Below are positions 40,599 to 62,792 of a stretch of 64,000 nt of DNA, one piece after another. The notes below the pieces were generated by a model. The model did no database searches and was not told the DNA's origin. It saw nothing but the letters and a program-made list of their open reading frames with translations. This stretch comes from Thelonectria olida (taxonomy: Eukaryota; Ascomycota; Sordariomycetes; Hypocreales; Nectriaceae), in contig JAGPYM010000058.1 in the NCBI GenBank assembly GCA_020736575.1, positions 62,001 to 126,000 on the forward strand. Direction: 5' to 3'. A program made the position numbers and the translations under genes. The stretch's first letter is position 1. Every line of letters starts with the position of its first letter.

Positions 40599-43500
40599 TT
40601 ACACACAAAGACCAAGGACACAAATACAGCCCAAGAAGGTTGCGCAAAGGTCGAGACCTAAGAGCTTGCAGTCGTTGGCACTGGCACATGCTCTGTTCTT
40701 GCAAGTGCCACTATTGCACACCTCGCTGCTCGCGCATTGACTGTTGGCAGTGCAAGATGTACACACTCCGCCGACACAGGCCTGGCCAGTGTTGCATTGC
40801 GAGTTGAGTGTGCATGCGCCGCATGCTCCAGAGATACATACCTGTCCGGTATTGCACTGCGATTTCAGCGTGCAGGCAACGCATTTCCCAGAGATACAAA
40901 CTTGGCCACCGCTGCAACCGGCGTTTGAGGCACATCCAGGACCGCAGACACCGCTGTTGCACACGTAACCAGACGTGACGGCGCTGCATTCCGTGTCGAG
41001 CGCACAGGACCTGCAGGCTCCAAGGCTGCAGACTTGTCCCGTGGTGCACTGAGAGGCGTTGGTGCAGGGAATGCACAGCCCAGACTGACATGTGAGGCCG
41101 GTAGAACAGCCCGCGTTGGAGGTGCAAGCCGTAATGCATGTGCCCGAACTGCAGGCTTTGCCGGTGCCACACTGAGAGCTTTGAGTGCACGATCCGCACC
41201 TGCTAGACACGCATGCTTGTCCAGTTGTACATTGAGAGTTGTCTGTGCAGGCAATGCAGTGTCCGGAGACGCAGGCAAGACCTCCGCTGCACCCGGCGTT
41301 GGACGTACATCCAGCTGAACAAACGCCGCTGTTGCAAACATTGCCAGGAACCAAACTGCTGCATTGCGTGTCCGATGTGCATGTACCGCAGGAGCCGCTC
41401 GAGCACACCTGACCGGTTGTGCACTGAGAGCTCGATGTGCAGGCAACGCAGCGGCCCGACGAACATACTTGGCCACCGCTGCAGGCTGCATTGGTGAGGC
41501 ACCCGGTAGTACAGATACCGCCATTGCATATCTGTCCGTTGAGAAGACACTGGGCATCCGAGGTACATGCGCTGCAGGCTCCGGTCAAGCACACTTGCCC
41601 GGTATTGCACTGAGAGTTCAATGTGCAGGCCGTACAATGGCCAGACGAGCACACTTGACCAGCGCTGCAGTCATTGTTTGTAGAGCAAGCCGCAATGCAG
41701 ACTCCGCCGCTGCATACCTTTCCAGAACCGCACTGGCCATCGAGCAAGCAGGCACCGCACAAGCCGGCCAGACAAACTTGGCCAGCATTGCACTGAGACG
41801 TGTCTGAGCAACTGGTGCAACGGAGACTCTGGCAAACTTGGCCGCTCACGCAGTTCGAATTGGACGTACATCCGGCAACGCAAAGACCACTGTTGCAGAT
41901 TTGACCTGTTGCACACTGGGAGTCGGAGGAACAGGCGCCGCAAGCCCCAGAAGAGCAGATTTGCCCAGTGCTGCACTGAGAACTGGCCGTGCAAGCAATG
42001 CAGTGACCCGAAGAGCATATCTGGCCGTTGTTACAGTTCGAGTTGCTCGTGCAAGCTGCGATGCAAAGGCCACTGCTGCAAACCTGGGAAGCGGAACATT
42101 GCGAGTCGGATGCGCAGGCGGTGCAAGAACCGGACTGGCAGATTTGTCCAGCAGTGCACTGGGACGAAGCCGTACACGATGTGCAAGTTCCCGATTGGCA
42201 CACCTCGCCAGTTGCGCAGTTCGAATTGGTTGTGCAAGCCTTGACACATGCTCCGCCACGACAGACGTTGCCAGTTGTGCATTGAGCATCGAGGGTACAC
42301 GTAGAGCAGAGCCCAGAAAGACAAACCTGACCTGTGCGGCACTGAGAAGTGCTCGTGCAACCGACACAGAGTCCCAGCACGGAGCAGACTCTGCCGTTGC
42401 TGCATGCGTTGCCACTAGTATCGAGGAAGTTGCACGTCGCCGCACAAAGACCAGTAGTACTGTCGCAGCCCTGCGTGGGCAGACATGAGCCGCCCAGCGT
42501 GCACAGTCCGCAGAGGCCGGTGGCAGTATTGCAGGTCTGGCCAGCATTGCATTGGCCGTTCGCAGTGCAGGAGACGCAGAGACTCGTACCGGTGTTGCAG
42601 ACGAGGCCGCCGAGGCATTGCGCATTAGAAGTGCAGCCCGCGATACAGAGCCCGTTGCTGCAGACTTGACCGGTGGCGCAGTTCGAGCTGGCCGTACACG
42701 AGGTGCAGGCACCACTGATACAAGCCAGGCCAGTGTCACATTGAGAATTCGAAGAGCAAGAGCTGCAACGGCCAGAGGAACAGACTTGGCCAGTGCTGCA
42801 CTGAGAGTTTGACGTGCAAGTCGCCCGGCAGGCTCCGTTCTGGCAATACTGGCCGATGCCAAGGTTGCACTGTAGATCGGTCGAACAAGCGCTGCAAGAT
42901 CCGAGGAGACACGCTTGGCCGTTGCTGCAGTCCGAGTTGCTTCCGCATGCCACGCAAAGTCCAGACTGGCAAACTCGACCACCGCTGCACTGGGAGTTGG
43001 ACGTGCAGCCAGGATGGCAGACGCCGCTCTCGCAAACGAGGCTGCTGTCGCCACACTGAGACGTGAGAAGATAGGAAGCGCATAGCCCAAGGGTGCAGAC
43101 CTGGCCGTCGCTGCAGTCCGAGTTGCCGGCGCAAGCGACACACAAGCCCGACTTACAGACTTGTCCGAGAGCGCACGAGGAGCTCGACGTACAAGCAGGA
43201 ATGCAGAGTCCACTGCTGCAGACGTAGCCGCTCGAGCACTGCGTGCTATCCGTGCAAGAGCCGCATGCTCCAGACACACAAGCTTGACCCGTTGAGCATT
43301 GGGAAGTGGACGTGCATGCCACACAATGGTCCGATTGACAGATTTGACCGGCGCTGCAGCCGAGACTCGAGGTGCATCCAAGCGTGCAGCGGCGACTGAT
43401 GCAGACTTGTCCGGCGGTCGTACACTCGCCATCAGAAGAGCACCCTTGGCATTCTCCAGACTTGCAGACTTGACCAGCGGTACACTGAGAGTCTTGAGTA

Positions 43501-46500
43501 CAGTCAGTGCAGAGACCGGCTTGACAAACCTGGCCGGTAGCGCAGGCCGAGTTGGACAAGCACGCAGCGTGGCACACGCCGCCATCGCAGACATCGCCGA
43601 GGTCGCATTGAAGGCTGTTGGTGCACGCACCGCAAGATCCAGAGACACATGCCTGGCCGGTACCGCAGTCTGAATTGAGCAGACAGGCCGTACACCTTCC
43701 ATTCGAACACACCTGTCCGCCGCTGCACTGAGAGCTGGACGTGCAGGCAGCTTGACAAGTTCCGGAAATACAAACCTGCCCGGTACTACACTGAAGGTCC
43801 AAGGCGCAGGATGTGCACAGCCCAAGGAGGCAGGCCTGGCCAGTATTGCATTGAGAGTTGGTCGTACAGCTCGCGCAGACGCCGAGGATGCAAGCAAGGC
43901 TGCCGCTGCATTGTCCATTGGATGTGCAGGCAGGGACACATATGCCAAGCGTACACACGTTTCCAGCGCCGCAGTCGGAGTTGAGACTGCAAGTTCCACA
44001 CTGTCCAGCCTTGCAGGCCTGGCCGACGGCGCATTGGGAGCTGTCAGTACAATCGCCACAAGCACCGTCGGAGCAGACATCGCCCCCGCTGCACTGAGAG
44101 CTGAGCGAACAAGAACCGCACACTCCAGCAGTGCAAATCTCTCCGTCTGCACACTGGGATCCCGAGGTGCAAGCGCGGCAGAGACCGCCAACACACACCA
44201 GACCATTGCTGCATGGATTGCTGTCGGAGCAGGATGGAGTGTCGCTGGTGACGCATTGTCCGTTCTGGCACGCCTTTCCAGTTCCGCATTGGCTGTCGAG
44301 AACACAGCCTGTGCAGACTCCAGCCGGGCAAATTTGGCCTTCGCTACACTGCGCCGAAGTGACACAGAGCGGGAGCAGATTGGGAAGACAGATACCGAGC
44401 TGGCAGATCTGAGCCGTGCCGCACTGAGAGCTTGACGTGCAAGTAACGGGCGTCGAGTCTACGCAAAGTCCACTATTACACACCTGGCCCGTCGGACAAC
44501 TCGTCGCCGTGCAGCTGTCGACGCAGGAGCCGAACTGGCAGACTTGGCTGTTGGGGCAGTTTGAATTCGTGCGGCAACCGGCAATGCAGCTGCCGAACTG
44601 GCAGATCTGTTGGGCACCGCAGGCGCTGTCGAGCGTGCACTGAGCGGGCTGCGTGATGCATTTCCCACCGCTACAGGCCTGGTTGCTGCCACAACCCGCG
44701 TTCGATGTGCAAGATGGAGGGCCGTTGTATGTGCAAACGGCGTCGACGCAGGCGCAGAGGCCGAAGAGGCAGATATCGGCTCCCAATACCTTTCCAACAC
44801 ACCGCGAGTCACTGTCGCAGGAGGTGGACGGCACAAGACAGTTTCCGTTCTGGCAAATCTCTCCTGCGGACGTGTCACAGTTTGAATTCGAGACACATGT
44901 CGGGGTTGAGCTGCCAAGTGCGCAAACGCCGTTGATACAGAGACAGACTCCGGGAAGGATGCACAGGTCGACGCCGACCAGACAGTCGCTGGCGCTGTTG
45001 CAGTCCTTCTTGGTGTTGCAGGCGCCGCTCTGGCAGGTTTGGCCAGTCGGGCATTCCGAATCCGCCGTGCATGAGTCGATACTGGGTGACAGCTGACACT
45101 TGCCGCCCTGGCATGTGCAGAGACCGAGAGTGCAGAGCCCCACGCCTAGAAGACAGTCGGCAGCGGTGTTGCATGATACCGTAGAAACGTCGGGAGTGCA
45201 TATTCCAACAGTGCATACTTGGCCCTCGCCGCACTCAGAGTTGGTTGTGCAGGTGAGGGAGCGAGGAGCACAGGCGCCGAGAGTGCAGAAGTAGTCGCTC
45301 TGACAGTCGGAATCAGATGAACATTGGACTGGGGTCGGAGTATGACACAATCCGAGAGTGCAGGTCTGCCCCGATGGGCAAGGGTTGCTGTCGCTGCATC
45401 GAGTCAGAGTTGACACACAAAGACCGGCCACGCAAATTTCGCCATCGGAACCGATGCAAGCGTCGTCGTCGCTGCAGCCGATAACAGCTACAGGGAGGCA
45501 AAGACCGGCTCGGCAATCTTCCCTCTGACCACAGTCGCCGTTGGTCTGGCACCCAGAAAGGCCGCCAGGAAGGCAGATGCCACTACTGCATGTTTGGCCG
45601 GTTGAGCATCCAGCAGAGTCAGTGCAGGTGTTGAGAAGACTCGGGAAGCACACGCCGTTGGTGCAAGTCGACCCCGAGGCACAGTCGGAATCTCCGGAGC
45701 ACCCGGGGAATGACTCGGGCAGGCAGAGCCCGGCTCGGCAAACATTGTTGGCACCACAATCGGAGTCGGCGGTACAGAGGATAGAAGAAGGGACGCAAAG
45801 GCCAGACTCGCAAGCCTGGCCGTCGCGACATTCTTGGCTGTTAGAACAGCCAGTCAGCAGTCCAGGGAGACAGGTTCCCAGGCGGCAAGTTAACCCTTCG
45901 GCACACTGGTCGTTCTCGCCACAAGCCGGGAGAACTTGGGGAATACAGACTCCGCCGGTGCAGGTCTCACGCTGAGCGCATTCAACCGAGGACTGACACG
46001 TCGTGAGTGAGGAGGGAAAACAAACGCCGGACCGGCAAGTTTCATCGGCACTGCAGTCAGTATTTGACTGGCAGCCGGGTAGGAGCTCAGGAATACAGAT
46101 GCCGCCAGAGCAGGATTGACCGGTTGCGCAGGCAGCATTGGATGTGCAGGAAGTGATAGTGCGAGGCACACAGAATCCAAGCCTGCAAACTTCGGTAACT
46201 TGGCAGTCTGAATCCGTGGTGCAGCTCGGGAGGAGGCTGGGAAGGCAGACCGCGGCCACGCAGGTTTGACCGACGTCACAGTCACTGGTGGCCGAGCATC
46301 CGTTGAGAGTTTCCGGAAGACATAGACCGGACACGCAGTCTTGGTTGGAGCCGCAGTCAGCCGCCCTGGTGCAAGTTGGGAAGACGGTCGGGAGGCAGAG
46401 GCCGGCTGTGCAGGTCTGGCCCGTTTGACACTGGTCGTCGGCTGAGCATGTCACCGAAGCCCGAGGAATACAGACGCCAAGTCTACACACCTCGGCGTTG

Positions 46501-49500
46501 TCGCATTCAGAGTCAGCCTCGCACGATGGGAGAACGCTCGGCAGGCACACGCCTCCAGTACAGGCCTGACCCGTCTCACAGTCGCTGGCGGACTGGCATC
46601 CGGTGAATGTATTCGGGAGGCAGAGTCCGGAGAGGCACGTCTCGTTGTCGCCGCAAGCCTGCCCCGACCCGCAGTTCGGGATCGAAGTCGCAAGGCAGAC
46701 GCCAAACGTGCAGGTTTCAGTCGCTCCGCAATCAGTGTTGGCGACACATATGCTCAGGTTTTCGGGAATACAGAGACCGAGCCTGCAGGCCGAGCCGGAG
46801 CCGCATTCCGCATCAGATTGGCACGAAGGCAACACCTCCGGGAGGCAAACCCCAGACACACAGCTTTGGCCATCTTCACAGCTGGTTTCGTCCGTTGCGC
46901 AATCGCCAAGAGAGCTCGGAAGGCACACGCCAGCGACACAGTTGTCGGCGGCTGCACAATCTGCCTTGGTGCTGCAAGCTGAGAAGACTGGAGTGAGGCA
47001 CAATCCGTTGTTGCAAACCAGGCCGCCCGTGCAAGCAGAATCACTGCCGCAGAGAGAAAGCGACTCGGGAAGACACACTCCAAGTCGGCAAACTTGGCGA
47101 GAACCGCATTCAGAGTTGGTCGTGCACGAAGGGAGGCCGCTAGGAAGGCAGACGCCCGAGCTGCACGTTTCTCCCGTGTTGCACGCGGTGCTATCGACGC
47201 ACGTGGGGAGAAGAACTGGGAGGCACACGCCGCCAGTGCAGGCGTTGCCAGAGCCGCAGTCGCTATCTTCTTGACAAGGAGGGAAGACCTCGGGGATGCA
47301 TATGCCAGCAGAGCAAATCTCTCCCTGGCCGCATGACGACTCCGTCTGGCATGTATCCAGTGTCCGCGGCAAGCACACTCCGAGCCTGCATACGCTGCTG
47401 CTTCCGCAATCTGAGTCGTCGCTGCAAGTTGGAAGCTGAGCAGGAATGCAAAGTCCTCCAACGCATGAACTACCCGTAGGACATTGATCGCCAGTTCCAC
47501 ACGCGGCAAAGACGTTGGGGAGACACCGGCCAGCCTCGCAAACCTGGCTGGTGCTGCAGTCGGAGCTCGTCGTGCAAGGAGGGAACACTTCAGGGACACA
47601 CACGCCGGCTGCGCATGTCTGGCCATCTTGACACGACCCGCCGCCTTCACCGCCGCAGAGAGCGGACGTCGAAGGAAGACACACGCCCAGTCGGCATACT
47701 TGACCAGTACCGCAGTTCGCGTTGCTTGTACAGGCGGGCAGGTACTCGGGTAGGCAAACTCCTTCGTTGCATTTGAGGCCATCGTCGCATGCATCGTCGC
47801 TCTCGCAGGTGGGCAAGATGCTCGGCAGGCAAAGTCCGGCCTTGCAGGATAGGCCGTTGGCGCAATCGCCGTCTTCTTCGCATGGCGGGTAGACTTGAGG
47901 GAGACATATACCTCCAGCACAGGTCTGACTCTGGCCGCACTGGTTGTCGCTTGTGCACTGAGTCAGCGTTTCGGGGATGCAGAGATTCAGCCGACAAACT
48001 TGTCCAGAACCGCAATCCGAATTAGCCTGGCAAGCCGAGAGGCCTTCAGGGAGGCACACGTCGGAAACGCAGGTCTGGCCTTCGCCGCACGTGTCGTCGG
48101 TGCAAGCGCCCAACACGCTGGGGAGACACACGCCCGCTGTGCAGGTGTTTCCTCGTCCGCAATCCGAGGCGTCTGAGCAGGGCGGGAAGACTTCAGGGAG
48201 GCAGATGCCGCCTGTGCAGGTTTGGCTGGTGCCGCACTGCGCGTTCGTTGTGCACTGGTTGAGTGTTTCTGGAATACAGAGATTGAGGCGACAAACTTGG
48301 CCACTCGCGCAGTCAGAGCTGGATCCGCATGAAGACAGGGCGTCGGGCAAGCATATTCCAGAAACACACTGCTGGCCCGTCGCACAGTCGCCTTGGTTCT
48401 GGCAATCGTCGAATACGCCAGGGATGCAAATGCCACCGGTGCACTCTTGTCCACTGATGCAATCGCTATCGGCGGAACATTGAGCGAAGGCTTCGGGAAC
48501 ACAGAGCCCAGCTGTGCAAGTCTGACCATCGTTGCATTGGCCGTCGCTTTCGCAAGTCGCGATCACATCGGGGATGCAAAGTCCGAGCCGGCAGACTTGG
48601 CTAGAGCCGCACTCGCCATCCGTGGTGCACGTCGGGAGATTAGCCGGGAGGCACACACCGGAGACGCATGTCTGGCCATCGCTACAAGCTGAATCGCCCG
48701 TGCAAGCAGGCAAGGTTCTGGGTAGGCAAACGCCGTTGTAGCATTCCGCGCTGCTGCCGCAATCCTGGGCAGTCTCGCAAGCTGGGAAGACTTCCGGGAC
48801 GCACAAGCCGGCTGTGCATATCTGGCCCGCGTTGCAGTTACTTGCGCTGGTGCAAGAGATGAGAGAATCCGGAATGCAGAAACCAAGGCGACAAACCTGG
48901 TTGGAGCCGCAATCATTGTCGGTGCCGCAGTCGCCCAGAGTACTCGGAACACACACCCCAGACGCGCAGGTTTGCCCGTCGAGACATGCATTCTCATCCT
49001 CGCAGCTGGGGAGGATACCGGGCAAACACACGCCGCTGCGACAGGTGTTGCCAGTGTCGCAGTCCCCGTCGGCTTCGCAGGTAGGGAATACTGGAGAAAG
49101 GCATATTCCCGCTGTGCACACCAGGCCACCAGTGCAGCCTGCATCAGACGAGCAAGTGCTGAGAGTCTGGGGCAGACAATAGCCGAGTCTACACACCTTT
49201 CCTGTGGCGCATTCCGAATCGCTCTGGCATGTAGGAAGGGAGGCCGGAAGGCAAACTCCAGACACACAAGTTTGGCCATCGTCGCAAGACTCCTCGCCAG
49301 AGTCCGAGCAGGTAGGGAAGACTCCAGGAAGACAAATGCCGCCGGTGCAGGCCTCGCCTTCGCCGCAAGAAGAACTCGACGCGCAAGGGGGGTAGACTGG
49401 CGAAAGGCAAATGCCCGCGAGACAGGCGAGCCCGTTGTCACATTCGCTGTCGGTCGTGCACGTCGCAAGCTGTTGAGGGATGCAGTATCCCAGCCTGCAA

Positions 49501-52500: not shown

Positions 52501-55500
52501 CGGCAAACGTGATCACTGGCGCATGCCTCGTCGCCTGAGCAGAGAGGCAACGTATCCGGAAGGCATACGCCGCCAGTGCATTTCTGGTCCGTACTGCAGT
52601 CCTCGTCGCCAGTGCACGTGTCGAGACCTTGCGGAAGGCAAAGGCCTCCGGCACAGGATTCCGTGTTTCTGCAGTCCTCGTCGCCTTCGCAGCTTGGGAA
52701 GACCTTCGGTATGCATATAGAACCCGCACACGTCTCGTTGTCGGTACAGTCGCTATCGGCGGTGCAGGTGTTGATAATTTGAGGAAGGCACACGCCCAGA
52801 CGGCAGACTTCGCTACTGTCGCACTCGGTATTCGTGGCGCAAGTAGGTAATGTGGGAAGGCAAGCGCCTGATGTGCAGGACTGCTCGTCACCGCAGTCAG
52901 AGTCGCTTGTACACGAGCCGACGCCTTGCGGCAAGCAGATACCGCCCGTGCAAGCCTCGTCCGAGTCACAGTCTCCAGCTCCGGTACAGTCAGGGAACGG
53001 GGACGGGAGGCAAATTCCGCCAATACAAGATTGTCCTTGGGTGCAAGAACTATCTGTTTGGCAAGTGTTGAGAGCTTGAGGAAGGCATACGCCCAGTCTG
53101 CACACTTGCGAGGCCTGGCAGTCGCTCGTAGCCGTACAAGTGGGCAACACACTAGGGAGACAGGCTCCCGATGTGCATACCTGGCCGGAGCTGCATTCAG
53201 AGTTGTCGGAGCAAGCGTCGAGACCTTGCGGAAGGCAGACGCCGGCGGTGCAGCTCGAGCCTTGAGTGCAGTTGGCACTGGCAGTGCAGCCGTTGAACAG
53301 TGGAGGAACGCATATTCCGGCCTTGCATTCGTTGTCGCCAACGCATTGGCCGTCCGAGGTACAGCTGGTCAACTGCTGCGGAATGCAAAGACCGAGTCGG
53401 CACAGCTGATTGCTGCCACAGTCGGAATCGCCAGTGCAGCTGGGCAGTGTGACGGGCAGGCACACCCCCGAGACGCAGCTTTCAGCACCGCCGCAGTCAG
53501 ACGAAGACGAGCATTGTTCAAGTATGTTCGGCAAGCAGGTGCCGTCTCTACACGAGGAGGAGCTTGCACAGTCCGTATCAGAGCGGCAGGGCGGATATAG
53601 AGCCGGAGTGCACACACCGGCAGTACACGTCTGGCCGGATCCGCAGGCACTATCGTCCTCGCACGTAGTGAGCGTCGGTGGTAGGCACACCCCGAGTCGG
53701 CAAACATTAGAGCCGCTACACTCCGTGTCGACAGTGCAAGCCGGCAAAATCGCTGGAAGGCAGGCTCCGGATCTGCACGCTTCGTCTTGACCGCAATCGT
53801 CATCGGTCGTACAGCTTTCGAACCCTCCAGGGAGACATGTACCGGCTATGCAAGCCTCGCTCTGACCGCAGTCAGTGCTCGACTGGCAGGGAGGGAATGC
53901 TGAAGCCAGGCAAATGCCCGCAACGCATCCTTGACCTTGAGTGCAGTCGGAATCCACTGTGCAGGCTGTGAGGGACCTAGGAACGCAAACACCGAGCCTG
54001 CACACCTGTTCTGCGGTGCAGGCAGAGTCGCCCGAGCAGGTGGGTAAGAGAGAAGGAAGGCACACGCCGGATCTGCAAGTTTGGTCGATATCACACTGGT
54101 CGTCAGTTGCGCACCCTTCGAGTCCGGTGGGGAGGCAAAGTCCCGATGTGCAGGTTTGTCCGTCAGCACATGTGCTGCCGCCAGATTCGCACGAGGGGAA
54201 CACCTCTGGTAGACAAAAACCGAGCGTGCAGACTTGGCCTGCACTGCAAGCTTCGTTGCCAGTGCACGCTGTAAGGTCTCGAGGCACACAAACGCCGAGC
54301 CTGCATAGTAGATCGATGGCGCATCCACTATCATCAGAGCATGGCGGCAGGATTGACGGGAGACACACGCCGTTGGTGCAAGACTGCCCAGTTGCGCATT
54401 CCGAGTTGGCGGTACAAGTGACGAGCCCTTGGGGCAAGCAAGTGCCAGAAGTGCACGTCTCATCCTCGTCGCAGTTCGAATCGGTGGTGCACCCAGGGAA
54501 CACCGTCGGAAGGCATATTCCGGCAGTACACGTCTCGCCTTGGCTGCAACCACTGCTTGACTCGCACGAGGTCAGGTCTCTCGGAATGCAGAAGCCCAGT
54601 CTGCACACTTGTTCAACAATGCACCCACTGTCGTCGGAACAGGGAGACAAGGCTGACGGCAGGCACACTCCTTCAGTACAAATCTGACTGCTGGTACAAT
54701 CGGAGTTGACAGAGCAGGTGTCCACGCCAGGGGGCAAGCAGAGTCCCGAAGTGCAAATCTGGCCGCCAGTGCAATCGGTCGTCTCGTCGCAAGTTGGGTA
54801 GACCTCCGGGAGGCAAATACCGGCCGTGCAAACTTGGCCGTTGCTGCAGTCGCTTTCAGACGTGCAGACGGTGACGACGCGAGGAACGCACACACTAAGC
54901 CTGCAGACTCCGTTGTCACTGCAATCGCTATCGACTGTGCACGCGGGCAGGATAGACGGGAGACACACGCCGCTAGTGCAGATCTGGTTCGAAGGACACT
55001 CGGAAGACGAAGTGCAAGTATCGATGTCGAGGGGCAGGCAAAGGCCAGCCTTGCAAGCCTCTCCCGTCCCACAGTCCTCGTCAGCTGAACAGCCAGGGAT
55101 GGCTGTAGGTAGGCAAATACCGGCGGTGCAAGCTTGCCCTTCGGAGCAGTCGGCGTCGAAGGAACAGACGGTAAGGGCTCTCGGGAGGCAAACGCCAAGG
55201 CGGCACACGTCCGTACTGTCACACTCGGAGTCGGTGCTGCACTGCGACAATGCTGCGGGAAGGCACACTCCTCCAATGCAAGTCTGACCAGTCCGACACT
55301 CATTGCTAGACGAACAGCCTTCGAGGACAGAGGGTAGACACAAGCCCTCTCGACAGACTTGGCTTGTGCTACAGTCCGTATCGGCTTCGCAGTTTGGATA
55401 CACCTTCGGCAAGCAGATACCCGCTGTGCAGATTTGGCCGCTTTGGCACGCGTTGTCGCCTTGGCAGGTCGTCAGGGTTTCCGGTATGCACACGCCAAGT

Positions 55501-58500
55501 CGACAGACTTGATCGCTATCGCAAGCCGAGTTTGATGAACAAGTCGGGAGGATCGCAGGGAGGCACACTCCGCCAGTGCACGATTGACCTGAGCCACAGT
55601 CTGACGGGTTCGTGCAGCCGTTCAGCGTGGAAGGAAGGCATATGCCTCCGAGACAGGCTTCGTTGTCGCCACAGTTCTGATCGACACTGCACTGAGGGAA
55701 GACACCGTCAATGCACACTCCCAGTGTGCAAACTTGTCCGTCTTGGCAATCGCCCACATCCGCACAAATAGTCAGCGAAGTGGGAAGGCACGTTCCGAGA
55801 CGGCAGACTTGATCCGAAGGGCAGTCATTGTCGCCAGCGCACGTCGAGAAGGAGTCCGGAAGGCACACGCCGGAGGAACAGGTCTGGCCTGGTCCACATG
55901 GATTGCCATCTCCGCATTGTGTCAAGCCTTGAGGCAGGCATATTCCGGCAAGACAAGATTGGCCTTGGTCGCAGGTTTCGTCAGTGGTGCAGGCGGGGAA
56001 GATTTCCGGCACACAAAGTCCCGCCACGCAGATATTGCCGCTCTGGCACGAACTGTCGCTGTCGCAGGTCGTGAGTGTTTTGGGAATGCAGACACCGAGA
56101 CGGCAAACCTGATTGCTATTGCAACTCGTGTCAGATGTACATGGTGAGAGGGTGCTCGGGAGGCACACTCCGTTGGTACAAATCAGGCCTTCGGCGCAAG
56201 AGTCATCAGTTCCGCAGGAGCTGAGGCCGGCAGGGAGACAAGCACCTCCCAGGCATGATTCTCCTTGGCCGCAGCTGTCGTCCGAAGTACAGGCAGGGAA
56301 GATTTCAGGGACACAAATTCCACCAGTGCAAATCTCGCCACTGCCGCATCCCGTGTTCGTCTGGCACGCGGTAAGGGTTTTCGGAAGACACACACCGAGT
56401 TGACACACCTGGTCTCTTTCGCAGTCCGTATTGGCGCCGCACTGGCTGAGGCCGGTGGGGAGGCAGGCGCCGGATGTGCAAGTCTGACTCTCGGCACAAT
56501 CTTGATCGCCTTGACATGTGTTGAGCCCCTGCGGAAGGCAAACTCCTCCAATGCAAATCAGTTCTCGACCGCAGTTCTGATCCGATGTGCACGTCGAGTA
56601 AACCTGGGGTAAACAGATACCGCCAGTGCAGGCCTGATTGGCGTTGCATTGGTCGTCCGAGGTACAGGTGTTGAGAGTCTGGGGGATGCAAAGTCCAAGA
56701 CGGCAGACCTGATCGGTAGCACAATCGGTCGATACAGTACATGCATCAAGCCCCTCGGGGAGGCACACGCCGGATGTGCACGTTTGTCCGGATGTGCAAG
56801 GTTGGTCGTCTCCGCACGTCGAGAGACCAGCAGGTAAGCACACGCCGCCAACACATTGCTGTGCCTGGGCGCAATTCTGGTCGGATGCACACGTAGGGAA
56901 GACCTTAGGCAAGCATATGCCGCCGGTACAGGCCTCGTCTTCGTCGCATTGAGAATTCGATGTGCACGTTGACAGCGTTTTCGGAACACATACTCCAAGG
57001 CGGCATACATCACTGCTACCGCAGTCTGCATCCGCTGAGCAGGTTGAGAGAGTCGACGGAAGACACACGCCAGAAGTGCAAGTTTGTCCCTGGCTGCATG
57101 GAGTGTCCGTACCACAGCTGGCGAGGCCACCGGGAAGGCATATACCGGCCAAGCAAGCCTGACCCTGTCCGCAGGTTGCATCGCTAACACAGGTGGGGAG
57201 AACTGGAGGCACGCAAAGCCCGCCGGTACAAACGTTGTTGCCTTGGCAGTCGCTTGTCGAGGTGCAGGTAGAGAGTGCTTTGGGAATACACACGCCGAGG
57301 CGACATGCGGCGTTGCCACCACAGTCCGTATCCGTAGAGCACGTAGGCAGGTCGGGAGGGAGGCACACTCCACCAACGCACGTCTGGCCGTCTGTGCAAA
57401 GAGTATTGGAGTCGCAGCTGGCGAGGCCTTGGGGAAGGCATATGCCGGCAGTGCAAGATTGAGCCTGGCCACACTCTTGGTCCGTTTCGCAGGTTGGGAA
57501 AGCCGTGTTCAGGCATACGCCAAGGGTGCAGGTCTGAACCAAAGTGCAATCACTGTTGGTTACACATAGCGTCAGGTCTTCGGGAATGCACAATCCCAAG
57601 CGGCAGGCTTCGTTGCTGCCGCACTCGTTGTTTTGGCTGCAGGCAGAGAGGGCGTCCGGAAGGCACACGCCGGACCTGCAGGTCTGACCCTGGCCACAAG
57701 GTGTATCGGTGCCGCACGAAGCGAGCCCCTGGGGAAGACAGATACCGGCGAGACAGGCCTCATTCTCGGCACAGTTGGCATCGGTTGAGCAAGAAGGGAA
57801 GACTCCGGGCAGGCAAATTCCGCCGGTGCACAGTTGAGCTTCGGGGCAGCCACTATCGGATGTGCACGGAGTGAGAGTGCCGGGGACGCAGACGCCCAAT
57901 GTGCACACGGTTTCACTGCCGCAATCGCTGTTTTGGCTGCACAATGGCAGGTTTTCGGGAAGGCACACGCCGGACGTGCAAGTTTGTCCAGAGGCACATG
58001 GCGTTTCGTTGTCGCAACTGGCGAGCCCGGCCGGAAGACACACGCCAGCTGTGCACTCTTGGTTGTTCGCGCAGTCACTTGGCTGTTGGCAAGTCGGGAA
58101 CAGCTCGGGAACACAAATTCCAGCTGTGCAAGCTTCGCCGGTTGAGCACTCGCCATCGCTGTTGCAAGCTGTAAGGGTTTCCGGGAGGCACAGCCCAAGA
58201 CGACACACCTCGTTGGACTCGCAGCCAGCGTTGTCGGAGCAGGAGGCCAGCCCGATCGGCAGGCATATACCGGAAACGCAAGCTTGGTCTTGGCCGCACC
58301 CGGAATTGCCAGAACAAGTTGGCAGCGAACTAGGTAGGCACACGTTTACCGTGCAAGTCTGGCCAGGAGCGCAGTCCTGTGAGGTCTGGCAGGGAGGGAA
58401 GACGTTCGGAACACAAGCTCCACCGGCGCAAGACTCGTCGTCGCCGCAGTCGCCGCTTTCCGAGCAGGCTGGGAGCCTGGGGACACAAAGACCGGCTGTG

Positions 58501-61500
58501 CAAGTGTTGGTGTTTGAACACTGCGCATCATTCTGACAGCCCGTAAGCGTCCGCGGCAGGCACACGCCAAGCCTGCATGCTTCATTGTTGGTGCACTCTG
58601 AGTCGAGGGTGCAGGATGTCAGGCCCGCGGGGAGGCAAAGACCGGATACGCAGCTTTGGGCGTCGCCGCATTCTGATGCAGCGGAGCATGGGGTCAGCGT
58701 GCTCGGGAGACATGTATTCGCCGTACAAGTCTGACCAGAGCTGCAATCCTGGGATGTTCGGCACGGAGGTAGGAAGGTAGGGACGCAGTGGCCCAGGGTG
58801 CAAGACTCGTCGGAATTGCAATCGGTGTCCTGCGAGCAGCTGGAAAATAAGGGCACGCAAATGCCAACGGTGCAGGTCTCGGTGGTGGAGCATTCCGAAT
58901 CGCTCACACATATGCTAAGGTCCTGGGGAACACACACGCCGAGTCTGCACGCTTCTGTAGCATCACAGTCCGAATCGACAAGGCAGGTAGGCAAATCTGC
59001 TGGTAAGCACACGCCGTTTGTGCAAGACTGGCCTTCTTGACAGCTTGAGCTATCCGAACAAGCACTGATACCCGTGGGCAGACAGTAGCCGGCGATACAG
59101 CTCTCGCCAGTTTCGCAAGTGTCGGCAGTCTCGCAAGTCGGGATGATGGTGGTCGGGATACAAAGACCGGCCGCGCAGACCGCACCGGAGCCGCAGTCGG
59201 CGTCGGCGGAGCAGAGAGAAAAGGTCGGGGGGAGACAGGCGCCGAGTCTACACACTGCGTCACCTTCACAATCGGAGCTGGTGGTGCAGGGAGGTAGGCC
59301 CGACGGAAGACAGACGCCACTGGTACAAGACTGGCCTTGCTCGCAAGACGAGCTGTCGGCACAGGTCGTGACGCCCGTGGGAAGGCACAGTCCGGCGATG
59401 CAACTCTCGCCAGCACCGCAAGTGTTGTCGCCAGAACTGCAGGATGGAATGATGGTATTAGGAAGGCAAAAGCCTGCCGTGCACGTTTGGCTGCTGGTGC
59501 AGTCTGTGTCGGAGGCACAAGTAGTGAGGCCTTGCGGAATGCAGGCTCCGAGCCTGCAAACTTGAGTGTTGGGACACTCGGAGTCGCCTGCACAGGTGGC
59601 GAGTCCCTCAGGAAGGCACACTCCCTCTGTGCACACCTGACCCGGGGCGCAATCGACGTCAACAGCGCAGGTTGCGATGCTTGTGGGCAGGCAAACGCTC
59701 GCAGTGCAAGCCTGCGACTCGTCACAGTCGGAGTCTTGGGTGCAGGAGGGGAAGATGGTGGAGGGAACGCAGAAGCCGGCCGCACACGTGTTGCCAGTCG
59801 AGCAATCGTTGTTCGATTGACACAGAGACAGGGTTTGCGGAATGCACACGCCCAATCGACACAGCTGGTTGACGGCACAGCCAGAGTCAGAGGTGCAGTC
59901 GGTGAGGAGATCAGGAAGGCAGATTCCGTTCGTACAAGACAAGCCGCTCGCGCAGGGCGTGTCGGAGCAGCTTTGAAGACCGGAGGGCAAGCACACGCCA
60001 ACCGTGCAAGACTGATCATCGCCGCAATCAGAGTCCTCGGTGCAGGTAGGATACACGGCAGGGGAAACGCAAAAGCCGGTGCTGCAGATGTCTCCGTTGG
60101 AACAGTCGCCGTTCGAGTCGCACAGAGACAGGCCTTGCGGAAGGCACACGCCTAGTCGACAAATCTGGCCACTTGCACATGGCGAGCTGCTGCTGCATTG
60201 AGGGAGAGTTTCCGGGAGACAGATTCCGCTAGTGCATGATAGACCGGTGCTGCAGGGGGAGTCTTGTGAACATTCCGCAAGTCCGGTAGGTAAACAGGTG
60301 CCAGCGGTGCAGCTTTGACCTTGAGCACATTGAGAAGTCTCGGTGCAAGAAGGGAAGATTGTCGAAGGCACACAGAAGCCAGCGGTGCAAGTTTGGCCAT
60401 CGCCGCACTCAGAGCTCTCGGAACAGAGCGAGAGATCCGTGGGAATACAGATTCCGAGCCTGCACACTTGCCCGTTGCCGCAGTCAGAGGTGTCTTGGCA
60501 CGTCGGAAGATCAGGCAAGCAGACCCCAGAGACGCAAGACAAGTCCTGGCTGCATGGAGATGTCTCAGAACAGCTTTGGAGACCCGTCGGCAAGCAAACT
60601 CCGCCAGTGCACGTCTGGTCTTGGGCACACTGAGACGAGGCTGTGCAGGTCGGGAATATCGTAGTCGGGACGCAGAAACCCGCGACACAGCCCTCGTCTT
60701 GACTGCATTCAGAGCTGTCAGAGCAGAGCGAGAGGTCCGTCGGGACGCACACTCCCAGTCTGCACACCTGGTTGTTACCGCAACCCGCTTGGTTTTGGCA
60801 GGTTGGGAGAACATCAGGTAGGCATACGCCATTCGTGCAAGCGAGACCCGGGCCACAGCTCGAGGCATCGGAACAGCCTTGGAGACCGGTCGGCAAACAG
60901 AAACCCGCCGTGCAGGTTTGGCCTTGGCTGCATTGAGACGATGCTGTGCAAGAGGGATAGATTGTGTTCGGGATGCAAAAGCCGGCCGCGCAGGTCTGGC
61001 CCTCGGCGCAGGATGTATTATCGGTGCACAAGGAGAGATCTGAAGGAACACAGACTCCGAGGCGACAAAGCTGGTCGCTACTGCACCCGCTGTCGTCTTG
61101 ACAGGTGGGTAGCAAGTCGGGGAGGCACACGCCGCTGGTGCAAGTGAGGCCCTGGTCGCATTCAGAGTCATCGGTGCAGGTTTGCAGCCCTGTTGGGAGA
61201 CACACGCTCGCAGTGCAAGTCTGATCCTGGCCACAATCGGAAGAATCGGAACAAGGAGGGAAAACCTGGTTGGAAACGCAGAATCCAGCGGTACAAATTT
61301 CGTCTTCGGCGCATGACGAACCATCTGTGCAGAGAGACAAGTCTCGGGGAATGCACACTCCAAGCCGACAAACCTGGCCAGTAGCGCAGCTCGAGTCTCC
61401 TGAGCAAGTCGGCAGGAGATCCGGAAGGCAAACACCGCCGGTGCAGACGAGACCCTGACCGCAGGAGGAGCTGCCGGCACAAGTGTCTAGCCCTGTGGGT

Positions 61501-62792
61501 AAGCACACGCCGCCGGTGCATGATTGTCCGTCGGCGCAGGTGTTGCTGCCGCCATCGCACGTAGGGAAGACAATCGTAGGGATGCAGAAGCCCGCCGTGC
61601 ACGTCTCGTCCTGCTCGCAGGTGGAATCGTCGGTGCAGAGACTCAGGTCTGAGGGAATACACACACCAAGCCGGCAGACCGTGACGGCATCACAGTTGGA
61701 CTGATCTCCGCATCCCGACAGGACATCAGGAAGACACACTCCGGATGTGCACGTGAGGCCTTGTCCGCAAGGCGAGTCATCTGAGCAGGTCGCCAATCCC
61801 GTGGGCAAGCACACGTTGGCGATGCAGGCTTGTCCCTCGTCGCAGTTGTCGTTTTCGTCACTGCAAGTCGGGAATATTGGAGACGAAACGCACAATCCTA
61901 GTGAGCAAATCTGGCCCTGAGCGCAATCGGACAGCTCGGCGCAGATGGACAGGTCCGGAGGAAGGCAAACTCCAAGTCTGCAAACCTCCTCACCCTCGCA
62001 GCCAGAGTCTCCTGTACACGTGGGAAGCGTACTAGGGAGGCACACGCCGCCGGTGCAGGTAAGGCCTTCGGCGCAGCTTGAACTGTCTGAGCAAGTCTCG
62101 ATTCCTGTCGGTAGACATATACCGGCCGTGCAACTCTGTCCGGCTGGGCAGTCATCGCCGCCGTCGCAGGTGGGAAATATTGGATTGGGAATACACAAAC
62201 CAGCGGTGCAGATTTCTCCCTCGCCGCAAGACGAGCTGTCGGTGCATGCGGAGAGATCAGTCGGAAGACACACACCGAGCCGACACACTTCGTCATTAGT
62301 GCAGTCAGTCTGGCCGGAACACGTCGGTAAAGATCCAGGTAAACATGCACCGCCAGTGCAAGTGAGACCATCGGCGCAGTCAGAGTCTCCTGTGCAGGCA
62401 GCAATCCCATCAGGGAGGCAGGTCCCGGAAACACATTGCTGGCCGTCTGCACAGTCGCCCTGGCCCTGGCAATCGTCGAAAATGGTAACGCAGATGCGTG
62501 CAATGCACTGTTGGCCATTGATACAGTCGCCATCGACCGAGCATCGGGTAGGTTCTCCTGTGTTTGAAGTTGTTGTGGTTGGGTTGGCAGTGATTGTCGT
62601 CGAAATGCGTTCTGAGGCTGCATAAGAAGTCGTCGAGTTGACCAGGCCAGGAGTTATTGTTGGCATAATAACAAACGTTGTCTGAGACGACGGGAATGGA
62701 GGCAATAAGGTAACAGCGCGACATCGACCAGCATCAACGTCGGTAAAATAAAACGCTGCGAGAGCGAGGGCGACAATCCTGAAGTTAGCCAT
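40599..62792 (-). CDS. Giant secreted cysteine-rich modular protein, 7,397 residues
   Basis: A single 22-kb frame without an intron or stop. The ATG at 62792 has a good context (A at -3, G at +4) and gives a signal peptide, MANFRIVALALAAFYF; the longer frame from 62885 would bury it behind 31 residues. A Ser/Thr-rich linker leads into about 285 modules of the pattern C-x5-C-x5-C-x4-C with spacers of 2-7 residues. Zone 1 (to about residue 5,650) repeats an ordered tetrad; a hinge (about 5,870-6,020) has variant modules; zone 2 (to the end) has shorter modules. Cys is about one residue in six. There is no enzyme domain, transmembrane helix or GPI signal. The cysteine spacing recalls EB, Dickkopf or EGF-like modules, but no family is certain. 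Role unknown; a disulfide-rich fibre, wall or surface protein is an inference. Confidence 0.85.
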   Translation of the reverse strand: MANFRIVALALAAFYFTDVDAGRCRAVTLLPPFPSSQTTFVIMPTITPGLVNSTTSYAASERISTTITANPTTTTSNTGEPTRCSVDGDCINGQQCIARICVTIFDDCQGQGDCADGQQCVSGTCLPDGIAACTGDSDCADGLTCTGGACLPGSLPTCSGQTDCTNDEVCRLGVCLPTDLSACTDSSSCGEGEICTAGLCIPNPIFPTCDGGDDCPAGQSCTAGICLPTGIETCSDSSSCAEGLTCTGGVCLPSTLPTCTGDSGCEGEEVCRLGVCLPPDLSICAELSDCAQGQICSLGLCVSSPIFPTCSDENDNCDEGQACIANVCLPTGLATCSDDSPCGQGLTCTSGVCLPDVLSGCGDQSNCDAVTVCRLGVCIPSDLSLCTDDSTCEQDETCTAGFCIPTIVFPTCDGGSNTCADGQSCTGGVCLPTGLDTCAGSSSCGQGLVCTGGVCLPDLLPTCSGDSSCATGQVCRLGVCIPRDLSLCTDGSSCAEDEICTAGFCVSNQVFPPCSDSSDCGQDQTCTASVCLPTGLQTCTDDSECDQGLTCTSGVCLPDLLPTCQDDSGCSSDQLCRLGVCVPSDLSLCTDNTSCAEGQTCAAGFCIPNTIYPSCTASSQCSQGQTCTAGFCLPTGLQGCSDASSCGPGLACTNGVCLPDVLPTCQNQAGCGNNQVCRLGVCVPTDLSLCSDSSECSQDEGCVAGFCVPTTIFPTCTASSQCAQDQTCTGGVCLPTGLQSCSETSPCSQDLSCVSGVCLPDLPTCQDTSDCGNGQVCRLGICIPTDLSLCSESSECGDGQTCTAGFCVPSTIFPSCTETSQCAQGQSCTAGTCLPTGLAECSQDSPCSTGLSCTSGICLPETLPQCSSSSPCASGQICRLGVCLPQGLSLCDSNGDCSNGDICSTGFCVSPAVYPTCTEDSDCGDDQSCTVGVCLPSGLQSCSDTPCASGLSCTNGICLPDLLTDCTSDSGCAVNQLCRLGVCIPQTLSLCQSNNDCSTGNTCAAGFCVPSTIFPSCTQDSDCDESQACTASVCLPTSIATCAVDVDCAPGQVCTEGVCLPEGLATCAGDSECPNTQVCRLGACIPQGLTTCASDTDCTSSQTCTAGFCLPNTIIPSCSSGDNTCGAGESCIAGLCLPTGVTTCADSSSCEQGQSCTSGVCLPSGLPPCTTSSDCEGDAVCRLGACLPPTFSLCSADADCGSGAVCAAGLCIPTTIIPTCETADTCETGESCIAGYCLPTGISACSDSSSCQEGQSCTNGVCLPADLPTCLVDSDCDATEACRLGVCVPQDLSICVSDSECSTTETCTVGICVPLFSSCSQDTDCNSDESCTLGHCVPTFLPPCRTSQDCSSGQTCTANTCLPSTLTPCSAASECGDAQSCVSGLCLPAGLTSCTLDSECTNNEACRLGVCLPRTLTGCQNDAQCSNTNTCTAGLCVPRLPACSESGDCGDDESCAGGACVPNVFPPCQTSQDCAPGQTCTVNVCLPSSLPTCSGNSGCGQDQACVSGICLPIGLASCSDNAGCESNEVCRLGLCLPETLTACNSDGECSTGEACTAGICVPELFPTCQQPSDCANNQECTAGVCLPAGLASCDNETPCASGQTCTSGVCLPENLPLCSQNSDCGSETVCTLGVCVPGTLTPCTSDSGCPEAQLCTGGICLPGVFPSCSTDANCAENEACLAGICLPQGLASCGTDTPCGQGQTCRSGVCLPDALSACSQNNECGSNEACRLGLCIPEDLTLCVTNSDCTLVQTCTLGVCLNTAFPTCETDQECGQAQSCTAGICLPQGLASCDSNTLCTDGQTCVGGVCLPPDLPTCSTDTDCGGNAACRLGVCIPKALSTCTSTSDCQGNNVCTGGLCVPPVLPTCVSDATCGQGQACLAGICLPGGLASCGTDTPCSQGQTCTSGVCLPSTLSTCSADADCGSSDVCRLGVCVPKTLSTCTSNSQCDEDEACTGGICLPKVFPTCASDQNCAQAQQCVGGVCLPAGLSTCGDDQPCTSGQTCTSGVCLPEGLDACTVSTDCATDQVCRLGLCIPQTLNTCTSDDQCNANQACTGGICLPQVYSTCTSDQNCGRELICIGGVCLPQGLNTCQGDQDCAESQTCTSGACLPTGLSQCGANTDCERDQVCQLGVCLPKTLTACQTNTGCGSGEICTGGICVPEIFPACTSDDSCGQGESCLGGACLPAGLSSCGTDDSCAEGLICTNGVCLPSTLSPCTSDTSCNSNQVCRLGVCIPKTLTTCDSDSSCQSGNICVAGLCVPEIFPACTTDETCDQGQSCLAGICLPQGLTQCGDGNPCGPGQTCSSGVCLPDSFSTCAGDNDCPSDQVCRLGTCLPTSLTICADVGDCQDGQVCTLGVCIDGVFPQCSVDQNCGDNEACLGGICLPSTLNGCTNPSDCGSGQSCTGGVCLPAILPTCSSNSACDSDQVCRLGVCIPETLTTCQGDNACQSGQICTAGICLPKVYPNCEADTDCSTSQVCREGLCLPSVLEGCSSSNECRTGQTCIGGVCLPAALSQCSTDSECDSTDVCRLGVCLPRALTVCSFDADCSEGQACTAGICLPTAIPGCSADEDCGTGEACKAGLCLPLDIDTCTSSSECPSNQICTSGVCLPSILPACTVDSDCSDNGVCRLSVCVPRVVTVCTSESDCSNGQVCTAGICLPEVYPTCDETTDCTGGQICTSGLCLPPGVDTCSVNSDCTSSQICTEGVCLPSALSPCSDDSGCIVEQVCRLGFCIPRDLTSCESSSGCSQGETCTAGICLPTVFPGCTTDSNCDEDETCTSGTCLPQGLVTCTANSECATGQSCTNGVCLPSILPPCSDDSGCAIDLLCRLGVCVPRDLTACTGNEACSAGQVCTLGFCLPEVFPSCESGGSTCADGQTCTSGLCLPTGLEGCATDDQCDIDQTCRSGVCLPSLLPTCSGDSACTAEQVCRLGVCVPRSLTACTVDSDCTQGQGCVAGICLASAFPPCQSSTDCGQSEACIAGTCLPGGFESCTTDDDCGQDEACRSGACLPAILPACTVDTECSGSNVCRLGVCLPPTLTTCEDDSACGSGQTCTAGVCTPALYPPCRSDTDCASSSSCRDGTCLPNILEQCSSSSDCGGAESCVSGVCLPVTLPSCTGDSDCGSNQLCRLGLCIPQQLTSCTSDGQCVGDNECKAGICVPPLFNGCTASANCTQGSSCTAGVCLPQGLDACSDNSECSSGQVCTSGACLPSVLPTCTATSDCQASQVCRLGVCLPQALNTCQTDSSCTQGQSCIGGICLPSPFPDCTGAGDCDSDEACTGGICLPQGVGSCTSDSDCGDEQSCTSGACLPTLPTCATNTECDSSEVCRLGVCLPQIINTCTADSDCTDNETCAGSICIPKVFPSCEGDEDCRNTESCAGGLCLPQGLDTCTGDEDCSTDQKCTGGVCLPDTLPLCSGDEACASDHVCRLGVCIPTDISLCAVDEQCGIDQVCTSGICLPAAFPPCQTDSNCGNGNVCRNNICLPNVLPSCGSGDTCAAGQTCTAGICLPSGLDSCTADSGCRSDQACRLGLCIPRDLTLCQQDSGCAANQVCTGGLCLPEALSPCQSSQECSSGQSCTGGICLPSAIVGCSDSSTCSTGQTCTSGVCLPSGLDRCTLDEDCDVSLLLLCRLGVCVSADLNLCTGDSDCGSQETCAAGLCVPALFPSCTGTSDCGEGQTCTNNVCLPNTLTPCSSESPCPSDQTCTAGLCLPNVLSTCSSNAQCDDREVCRLGLCLPTSLTSCEADSGCLDGQSCTGGLCLPTAFPDCSTSQDCGSGNVCISGSCFPDLVNQCTDDLSCGTGARCASGLCVPDFLPTCSSDSQCISTQVCRLGVCLPRDLTSCTTSQDCGSGQTCAAGLCVPDTYSTCTTSTDCSQGQVCNAGLCLPDFLNSCQDDSACTTGQTCTNGICLPSTLSSCSSNSACEDNEVCRLGVCIPRTISGCNSETPCGSGQTCTAGICLPTAFPGCESSASCGSGQTCTAGLCLPDVLSSCGEGNTCPSDQTCASGVCVPSVLPSCSEDSECTSTQVCRLGVCLPRTIVDCTDDGGCDDGQNCVAGFCVPELFPPCQSATDCTSGQSCTAGICLPSGLDTCQSQSDCGTSQSCSNGVCLPDFLPACTSEDDCSGAQVCRLGHCLPSELDACQTDSQCEAGQSCLGGLCVPAVFPPCQSDSNCNSGQVCTAGVCLPSALPTCDSDQSCGANQACVSGLCLPDILQTCTTDATCSGDDVCRLGYCIPDALTVCTSDSECTGGATCLGGLCLPEVFSSCTDSQDCNNGEVCRGGACLPTTLTGCDDSSPCGANQVCTGEVCLPDSLPLCSTDSQCAFSQVCRLGVCLPRSLSTCESNGDCSNTFICTSGLCIPPLFSSCSVDSECAQGQSCVSNTCLPTTLETCTSDTTCGTGRVCRSGVCLPTLLPSCASDSECDTAQVCRLGYCIPQQLATCTTDSECDNGLACLAGICLSPVYPPCASSSSCGEGEACTGGICLPGVFPTCSDSGEESCDDGQTCVSGVCLPASLPTCQSDSECATGKVCRLGYCLPQTLSTCSSDAGCTGGLVCTAGICLSPVFPTCEADGDCDTGNTCRSGVCLPGILPSCEDENACLDGQTCASGVCVPSTLGDCGTDNDCGSNQVCRLGFCIPDSLISCTSASNCNAGQICTAGLCVPEVFPACETAQDCGSSAECYNGVCLPRTLPACTGDSACSDGQTCVSGVCLPANLPTCTTDGECGSSQVCRLGLCIPDVIATCESDGQCNDGQTCTAGLCVPEAFAQCSADSDCISGQECTGGICIPGVFDDCQNQGDCATGQQCVSGICLPDALSSCGSSSDCASGQVCRLNLCIPETLNQCTTNAQCGTSQTCTGGICLPEVFPPCSDASDCGRGNTCTAGVCLPSVLGACTDDTCGEGQTCVSDVCLPEGLSACQANSDCGSGQVCRLNLCIPETLTQCTSDNQCGQSQTCAGGICLPQVYPPCEEDGDCANGLSCKAGLCLPSILPTCESDDACDDGLKCNEGVCLPEYLPACTSNANCGTGQVCRLGVCLPSTSALCGGEGGGSCQDGQTCAAGVCVPEVFPPCTTSSDCSTSQVCEAGRCLPNVFAACGTGDQCPTGSSCVGGLCIPAQLPTCSDDSDCGSSSVCRLGVCLPRTLDTCQTESSCGQGEICSAGICIPEVFPPCQEDSDCGSGNACTGGVCLPVLLPTCVDSTACNTGETCSSGVCLPSGLPSCTTNSECGSRQVCRLGVCLPESLSLCGSDSACTGGLVCNNGLCLTPVFSACSTKADCAAADNCVAGVCLPSSLGDCATDETSCEDGQSCVSGVCLPEVLPSCQSDAECGSGSACRLGLCIPENLSICVANTDCGATETCTFGVCLATSIPNCGSGQACGDNETCLSGLCLPNTFTGCQSASDCETGQACTGGVCLPSVLPSCEADSECDNAEVCRLGVCIPRASVTCSADDQCQTGQTCTAGLCLPTVFPTCTRAADCGSNQDCVSGLCLPETLNGCSATSDCDVGQTCVAAVCLPSLLPSCTTDSDCQVTEVCRLGFCVPRTITSCTSNAACATGQSCSGGICIPELLPGCQSNTDCSADETCRSGVCFPSSLTTCQSSVECAQRETCTGGVCIPQVLPACGENDQCAEGLTCRLGTCLPGLLTGCSNSQECRDGQACESGLCVPSSILCTADSDCGANNVCRAGLCLPESFPGCSGDSDCASGSTCTNGVCFPSLLNTCTDSAGCSTGQTCSSGICLPGGLSGCQTNGDCGQREDCRAGLCLPVAVIGCSDDDACIGSDGEICVAGLCVSTLTRCSDSNPCPSGQTCTLGLCHTPTPVQCSSDSDCQSDYFCTLGACAPRSLTCTTNSECGEGQVCTVGICTPDVSTVSCNTAADCLLGVGLCTLGLCTCQGGKCQLSPSIDSCTADSECPTGQTCQSGACNTKKDCNSASDCLVGVDLCILPGVCLCINGVCALGSSTPTCVSNSNCDTSAGEICQNGNCLVPSTSCDSDSRCVGKVLGADICLFGLCACVDAVCTYNGPPSCTSNAGCGSNQACSGGKCITQPAQCTLDSACGAQQICQFGSCIAGCRTNSNCPNSQVCQFGSCVDSCTATSCPTGQVCNSGLCVDSTPVTCTSSSQCGTAQICQLGICLPNLLPLCVTSAQCSEGQICPAGVCTGCVLDSQCGTGKACQNGQCVTSDTPSCSDSNPCSNGLVCVGGLCRACTSGSQCADGEICTAGVCGSCSLSSQCSGGDVCSDGACGDCTDSSQCAVGQACKAGQCGTCSLNSDCGAGNVCTLGICVPACTSNGQCSGSLACILGVCASCTTNSQCNTGQACLLGLCTSCALDLQCSTGQVCISGTCQAACTSSSQCSGGQVCSNGRCTACLLNSDCGTGQACVSGSCGACTNSLQCDLGDVCDGGVCHAACLSNSACATGQVCQAGLCTDCTQDSQCTAGQVCKSGECQGCSSDGECTTAGQVCISRRCTLGCTSSLGCSAGQICQSDHCVACTSTSQCSTGQACVSGACGSCTDSTQCSSGYVCSSGLCIPACTSSSSCALGQVCKSGLCVACAGNSDCSDGQVCTLGLCASYLLTSQCGDSSLVCESGVCHPGCTSNSQCSGGRVCQSGLCVACGSNSDCSNGQACLLGSCSACSTDLQCNLGIGQYCQNGACRATCTSNSQCSTGQVCSSGRCSSCSSNSQCDTGLACISGACTSCTASSNCATGQVCSNGLCIAGCTSNAQCLGGLVCNTGTSLCVSCTANGQCNAGQTCNTATGLCGLCTLGGSCLPTQGCDSTTGLCAATCNFLDTSGNACSNGRVCSVLGLCVGCTSTSQCRTGQVCLSGLCSTCTLDAQCTTGNVCRGGACVKACTTNSNCATGEVCQSGTCTSCTASSQCTAGQICQSGSCTACASDSQCSASQVCSSGLCIAACTSNSNCNNGQICSSGHCIACTASSQCSTGQICSSGACGACSSDSQCATGQICNSGLCVAGCTSNSNCVSGQVCQSLRCTSCSDTSQCNAGQVCLAGLCGACLLDGQCGSGKVCSGGVCIAACSTNNDCSAGQVCSSGHCTACTLNSQCNTGQVCLTGACSACTSDAQCLLNGQICNGGICTTGCLTNAACSGGQVCSSGRCVACTSSSQCTTGQVCSSGSCGTCTSDTQCSSLVPGNVCNSGVCSAGCTSNAGCSGGLACVSGHCIACTDNSQCTTGQACVSSRCGSCTQSSQCGTGKACSSGTCITACTSNAGCSTGLTCQSGLCIPCTNASQCTTGQVCSLGACRSCALDTECSAVTSGYVCNSGVCGPGCASNAGCSGGQVCISGKCVACTLKSQCNTGQVCISGACGACTLNSQCNTGQACVGGVCTSCTANSQCASSEVCNSGTCKNRACASANDCKLLGLDLCATFLGCICVLGLCV
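40640..44700 (-). repeat. Short-module array, about 65 modules of ~20 residues
   Basis: Modules such as CTSNSQCSTGQVCSSGLC follow each other with spacers of only 2-3 residues, often grouped in threes. Ser, Asn, Thr, Gly and Gln dominate. The CRLGVC and CTAGFC signatures of the tetrad array are absent. The frame ends with a CxC module like those of the hinge (DCKLLGLDLCATFLGCIC). Confidence 0.7.
44740..45185 (-). repeat. Hinge of variant CxC modules within the giant protein
   Basis: Three modules here break the pattern: DCLLGVGLCTLGLCTCQG, DCLVGVDLCILPGVCLC and CVGKVLGADICLFGLCAC. Each has a hydrophobic loop and a C-x-C pair. They separate the tetrad array from the short-module array. Confidence 0.7.
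45880..62550 (-). repeat. Tetrad super-repeat array, about 54 copies of ~303 bp
   Basis: Four modules recur in fixed order: one ending CRLGVCLP, one ending CTAGFCIP, one opening [IV]FPxC, and one opening TGLxxC and ending CTSGVCLP. Counting the CRLG module gives about 54 copies between about 62,280 and 46,190, a spacing near 303 bp (101 codons, 16 Cys). Copies differ at many positions, so the array is old and diversified, not a recent slippage product. Single-residue insertions occur in spacers (for example GGSNTCADG-type loops). Confidence 0.85.

Follow-up and report, generated by a model that had tools for sequence, protein, structure and literature searches.

A single minus-strand frame of 22 kb in Thelonectria encodes what looks like an unstudied extracellular fibre, a very long and very regular array of small four-cysteine modules. 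The module type itself is already catalogued (as Pfam DUF7107, a domain without assigned function), and what appears new is an array of this length and regularity: the gene is an extreme example of its family, with 25-residue, putatively disulfide-bonded beads encoded in one exon. The window referred to below is the whole stretch of DNA analysed, 64 000 nucleotides, corresponding to positions 62001–126000 of contig C120 in an assembly of 52.5 Mb and 165 contigs.

The open frame and the layout of its product

The frame is free of stops over 7,455 codons (window 40602–62966, with the stop codon at 40599–40601), where a mean of 204 would be expected from 100 first-order Markov simulations, in none of which did the longest open stretch exceed 315 codons. 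Translation from the ATG at 62792 (22,194 bases including the stop, about 59% G+C) gives 7,397 residues, of which 1,212 are cysteine; an alternative ATG is found 25 codons further upstream. No intron is needed, because successive matches to the module pattern are at most 19 residues apart. The other five frames contain from 40 to 194 stops. The frame with only 40 (window 40602–62966) is on the same strand as the gene and includes one open stretch of 870 codons, which probably arises from the codon pattern.

The initial annotation had described a frame open for 22 kb, in a window where every other gene for a secreted protein has introns. The 7,455 stop-free codons bear out the first part; the second holds for the genes looked at, the pieces of a multicopper oxidase and those of a DUF1996 protein each being split over two frames. 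Two further genes are nearly complete in a single frame, one for an amino-acid transporter (487 aa, profile positions 6–408 of 410) and one for an MFS transporter (494 aa, profile positions 22–346 of 347), but as membrane transporters they fall outside a claim about secreted proteins. The order of leader, Ser/Thr linker and modules given in the same annotation is confirmed by the translation, with the leader read by eye (Table 1), and the modules run from residue 84 to the protein end. Its figure of about 285 modules is better replaced by two counts, 300 by a relaxed pattern and 267 with exactly the spacing C-x5-C-x5-C-x4-C. It had also reported neither catalytic domain nor membrane anchor: no domain other than the modules exceeded its cut-off where the protein was scanned, but the hydrophobic C-terminus makes the statement about an anchor insecure.

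Table 1. Features of the giant gene and its product (positions are those of the window)
Feature	Position	Strand	Basis
Whole gene: 7,397-residue secreted-looking four-Cys-module protein, single frame	40599..62792	-	ORF and pattern count
Signal-peptide-like start, about residues 1–21, hydrophobic, ending ...DVDA	62730..62792	-	Cleavage site by eye
Ser/Thr-rich linker, about residues 22–83, with a counterpart in the C80 paralogue	62544..62729	-	Translation, comparison
Zone 1: 229 modules, mostly of 25-residue period, 7-residue LP-type linker, four-module (100-residue) superperiod	45396..62543	-	
Transition zone: 14 matches to the module pattern with irregular linkers, three six-Cys type-B modules among them	44241..45395	-	
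Type-B six-Cys module 1	45096..45173	-	
Type-B six-Cys module 2	44922..45002	-	
Type-B six-Cys module 3	44733..44819	-	
Zone 2: compact modules, linkers for the most part of 2 or 3 residues, weak three-module superperiod, matches TIGR04201	40689..44240	-	
Terminal type-B six-Cys module, hydrophobic, Kyte–Doolittle 2.2 over 19 residues	40605..40688	-	

Only 12 of the 1,212 cysteines lie outside modules. Seven-residue linkers account for 213 of the 299 between modules and a period of 25 for 205 of the 299 steps, with a longest unbroken run of 57; the commonest periods overall are 25 and 20. Among the exact-spacing modules of zone 1, identity at non-cysteine positions peaks at a lag of four modules (three stretches give 0.469, 0.391 and 0.340, while lags 1–3 give 0.237–0.295), and one module of the four-module unit carries CRLG in the consensus. 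The 57 modules of zone 2 have linkers mostly in the order 2-2-3, and a weak identity peak at lag 3 (0.448, against 0.370 at lag 1 and 0.404 at lag 2). Four modules are of the six-cysteine type B: the transition zone has three of them, and the fourth closes the protein. The mature protein would be of about 732 kDa, with a pI of 4.05 and 695 Asp+Glu against 154 Lys+Arg. Ordinary trypsin proteomics would probably largely miss such a protein, which has 155 Lys+Arg in its full 7,397 residues.

The module and its relatives

Each module is predicted to form a β-hairpin, which a short helical turn precedes in nearly every case. The zone 2 model is the more confident (mean pLDDT 91.5, pTM 0.65); that of zone 1 has middling confidence and a low pTM (mean pLDDT 75.6, pTM 0.41), so any stiffness of zone 1 is putative. 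Neither the zone 1 nor the zone 2 model shows disulfide pairing. The hairpin core matches the squash trypsin inhibitors, which are knottins (EETI-II, PDB 1w7z), locally over 24–28 residues with an rmsd of 1.0–1.9, but the scores are weak, there is no sign of homology, and the modules lack the third, knot-forming disulfide. A knottin, or inhibitor cystine knot, has three interlaced disulfides, and the modules compared have four cysteines each (the comparison applies to the four-Cys modules, which are the ones modelled). The core of a knottin, the CSB motif, is a small sheet stabilised by two disulfides. Min-23 is a known CSB-motif peptide with two disulfides (PMC2659701). The top Foldseek row for zone 2 was the N-terminal region of Dkk4 (PDB 5o57), with an E value of 1.0 and an rmsd of 6.6.

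By profile, the module is the same as that of DUF7107 (PF23416; cut-off 24.6 bits), which scores 598.8 bits in residues 1–2500 (68 stretches) and 255.3 bits in residues 5398–7397 (45 stretches); residues 2501–5397, which are filled by modules, gave DUF7107 matches along their length in the genome profile search. The C-terminal zone also matches NCBIfam TIGR04201 (Myxo_Cys_RPT), with 180.3 bits over 40 stretches against a cut-off of 25, while residues 1–2500 gave no TIGR04201 match at E 1. The proposal that the gene represents something undescribed therefore has to be narrowed, since the module and the C-terminal zone both match profile families and bacterial arrays exist, but it may stand for the length and regularity of the array: in searches capped by length and by number of candidates, none of 177 proteins had more than 50 exact-spacing modules, and the best locus among those scored had 58 in the 1,466 residues covered, against 267 here.

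Resemblances to other named proteins are more distant. Dickkopf_N (PF04706; cut-off 25) reaches 78.1 bits in residues 1–2500 but only 20.3, below the cut-off, in residues 5398–7397, and scores more weakly than DUF7107. Dickkopf proteins have two distinct ten-cysteine domains, and the giant protein, with its four-Cys modules and four six-Cys modules, is not one of them. Dumpy of Drosophila shares the general plan of a giant modular disulfide-rich extracellular protein, but its DPY module (PF21164) gave only a weak echo in the protein pieces (19.5, 19.9 and 23.7 bits, below the cut-off of 27), and no EGF family was among the Pfam matches of the scanned pieces. QID74 of Trichoderma is described as cell-wall-associated and protective, with tandem cysteine-bearing repeats (PMC13170347); its 13 repeats of 59 residues have another motif and a length different from the commonest periods here, and its tridecapeptide motif has no match in the giant protein. 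TraA of Myxococcus xanthus, a TIGR04201 protein, is likewise secreted with tandem repeats, and in the account given in PMC3325183 its related cysteine repeats occur together with a PA14 domain. No PA14 domain was among the Pfam matches of residues 1–2500 and 5398–7397, and modules fill residues 2501–5397, so the giant protein is not placed among TraA-type adhesins.

At least 121 DUF7107 matches were found in the same genome (150 of 325 candidates scored), all on contigs C120, C100, C59 and C80. C80 has one open frame of 316 codons, for a leader, a Ser/Thr linker and eight modules, 33% identical to the start of the giant protein over 248 columns. A second giant locus, of about 19.5 kb, lies on C100 (2955032–2974561), where cysteine modules are mixed with Ser/Thr-rich repeats of the GGxISDAGST type in three overlapping long frames (2,885, 1,691 and 2,128 codons), the last of which ends, as the giant gene does, in type-B modules. 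C59, a contig of 15.6 kb, has 99.955% identity with C100 in the 6.6 kb that were compared, where it shows three gaps and loses the frame; it is most simply read as a redundant contig.

The genome collections compared were prokaryotic, viral, plasmid or metagenomic. Three protein searches gave 2, 56 and 153 matches, with 120 of the last set listed; in the second and third, scores were computed only for the candidates that shared most words. Twelve of the listed matches name an organism: seven are from Myxococcota, Myxococcales or Archangium, two from Deltaproteobacteria, and one each from Phycisphaerae, Woesearchaeota and Pseudomonadota; one further listed match has a eukaryote transcriptome source (P0116). 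A scan of prokaryote genomes yielded 30 stretches, four of which hold relatives. The best of the four, on a stretch of 4,402 bases in a record named 'Myxococcales bacterium', is a protein of 1,466 residues or more, made up nearly throughout of four-Cys modules, in an open frame of 1,756 codons; 23 contigs of the same genome carry at least 43 DUF7107 matches between them (with 150 of 835 candidates scored). Its 58-module stretch has 49.3% G+C, against 69–70% in the other three relatives, so its binning deserves care. Judged by sequence, then, shorter arrays of the same module occur in myxobacterial records.

Age of the array and selection on it

Repeat units were compared as 35 units of exactly 100 residues, kept from 57 possible starts in one phase and giving 595 pairs. 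Their DNA has diverged far (best identity 0.647, median 0.527), and non-synonymous differences remain well below synonymous ones: pS and pN are 0.773 and 0.378 over all 595 pairs, with means of 0.704 and 0.314 for the 30 most alike, or 0.678 and 0.386 for the 30 most alike when shared cysteine codons are left out. In the 15 most alike pairs listed, omega is 0.15–0.43 in the 11 with measurable dS, values that are rough because dS is close to saturation; the other four pairs are saturated. Homologous cysteine codons at lag 4 are identical in 471 of 820 pairs (0.574), against 0.591 expected if they were independent; they thus differ as often as independent draws, and the residue has therefore been kept while the third base has come to equilibrium. 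All this argues for an old module array, long kept under purifying selection on the protein. The initial annotation had taken the open frame to imply such selection and had named a dN/dS near 1 across modules as the contrary outcome; the absence of stops, the low pN beside a nearly saturated pS, and an omega between units far from 1 in those 11 pairs, rough as it is near saturation, all agree with its view.

Possible roles

The best reading, and in our judgement a fairly probable one, is that of an extracellular fibre or coat protein locked by disulfides, favoured because of the size, acidity, regular spacing and scarcity of cutting sites of the protein, and because no other domain exceeded its cut-off where scanned. 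The gene would give a single secreted, very acidic chain of about 730 kDa, in which some 300 beads with two disulfides each follow one another, with bridges inside the beads that may join cysteines 1–3 and 2–4. Such a chain might be an extended or partly rigid fibre, whose length would come very roughly to half a micrometre if beads are of the usual size. It could belong to the coat, sheath or adhesive matrix on the surface of hyphae or spores and there resist proteases and stress, by analogy with other giant disulfide-rich matrix proteins. The paralogues on C80 and C100 share layout traits with it (leader, linker and modules in the one, a type-B ending in the other). More tentatively, and with the balance of probability against it, the protein may represent a new class of structural polymer, in which about 300 minimal hairpin beads with four- and three-module super-repeats make a near-micrometre covalent fibre of the fungal surface, whose register has been kept by selection until synonymous sites were saturated. 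A fibre or coat of this kind raises three questions: how a single chain with 1,212 cysteines is folded in the secretory pathway, what accounts for the great age and regularity of the repeats, and whether the bead serves surface contact in fungi and myxobacteria alike.

The hydrophobic C-terminal module makes a wall- or membrane-anchored adhesin the main rival; its array would be a stalk holding out a binding part, and its anchor would be that module or a GPI signal. Many fungal adhesins carry long Ser/Thr-rich repeats, and the C100 locus pairs modules with repeats of this sort. The C-terminal 19-residue windows reach a Kyte–Doolittle value of 2.2, and related cysteine repeats are combined with PA14 in myxobacterial TraA (PMC3325183). 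We nevertheless consider an anchored stalk unlikely, as no binding domain is listed at either end of the protein, and the hydrophobic stretch contains Cys and Asp and is part of a six-Cys module, a type with further copies inside the protein. If the 7-residue linkers were loops displayed on mini-knottin cores, the array could be a many-headed inhibitor or decoy that blocks hostile proteases or titrates them away; we regard this as improbable.

A store of peptides to be cut out by Kex2 is excluded because the 7,397 residues include a single KR/RR pair and a single KK/RK pair. The same scarcity of dibasic sites, together with the strong net negative charge, makes an array of antimicrobial or defensin-like peptides very improbable, although cysteine-rich repeats of other spacing have been likened to β-defensins (PMC6339383; PMC7379824); the rusticalin-type spacing given in the first of these sources, Cx6Cx6-7Cx8Cx7CC, has no match in the giant protein. 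With 1,212 cysteines, an extracellular metal or redox buffer acting through reduced thiols might be imagined, but the signal peptide (read by eye) and the hairpin models favour disulfides, and the whole protein, unlike metallothioneins, has no CC pair and only four CxC, so that this reading seems scarcely credible. Least probable of all is an assembly product or a decaying gene. The lost frame in C59, a near-copy of C100, does indicate that the assembly may contain such errors, but the 7,455 codons of the giant frame are interrupted by neither stop nor frameshift, and collapse or false duplication is implausible among the 35 units compared, whose DNA identity never exceeds 64.7%.

The DNA around the gene has some features of its own. 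Pieces of GH16 and DUF1996 genes (window 37110–39972, plus strand) adjoin it in convergent orientation. Imperfect minisatellite DNA, with units of about 54 and 203–221 bases and others, lies just upstream (window 63367–64000) and continues for 1672 bases past the window end. Low-G+C blocks occur in RIP-eroded or heterochromatic DNA of ascomycetes, and an abrupt block of 9–19% G+C is found near the contig end (C120:130001–132000), about 5 kb from the start of the giant gene.
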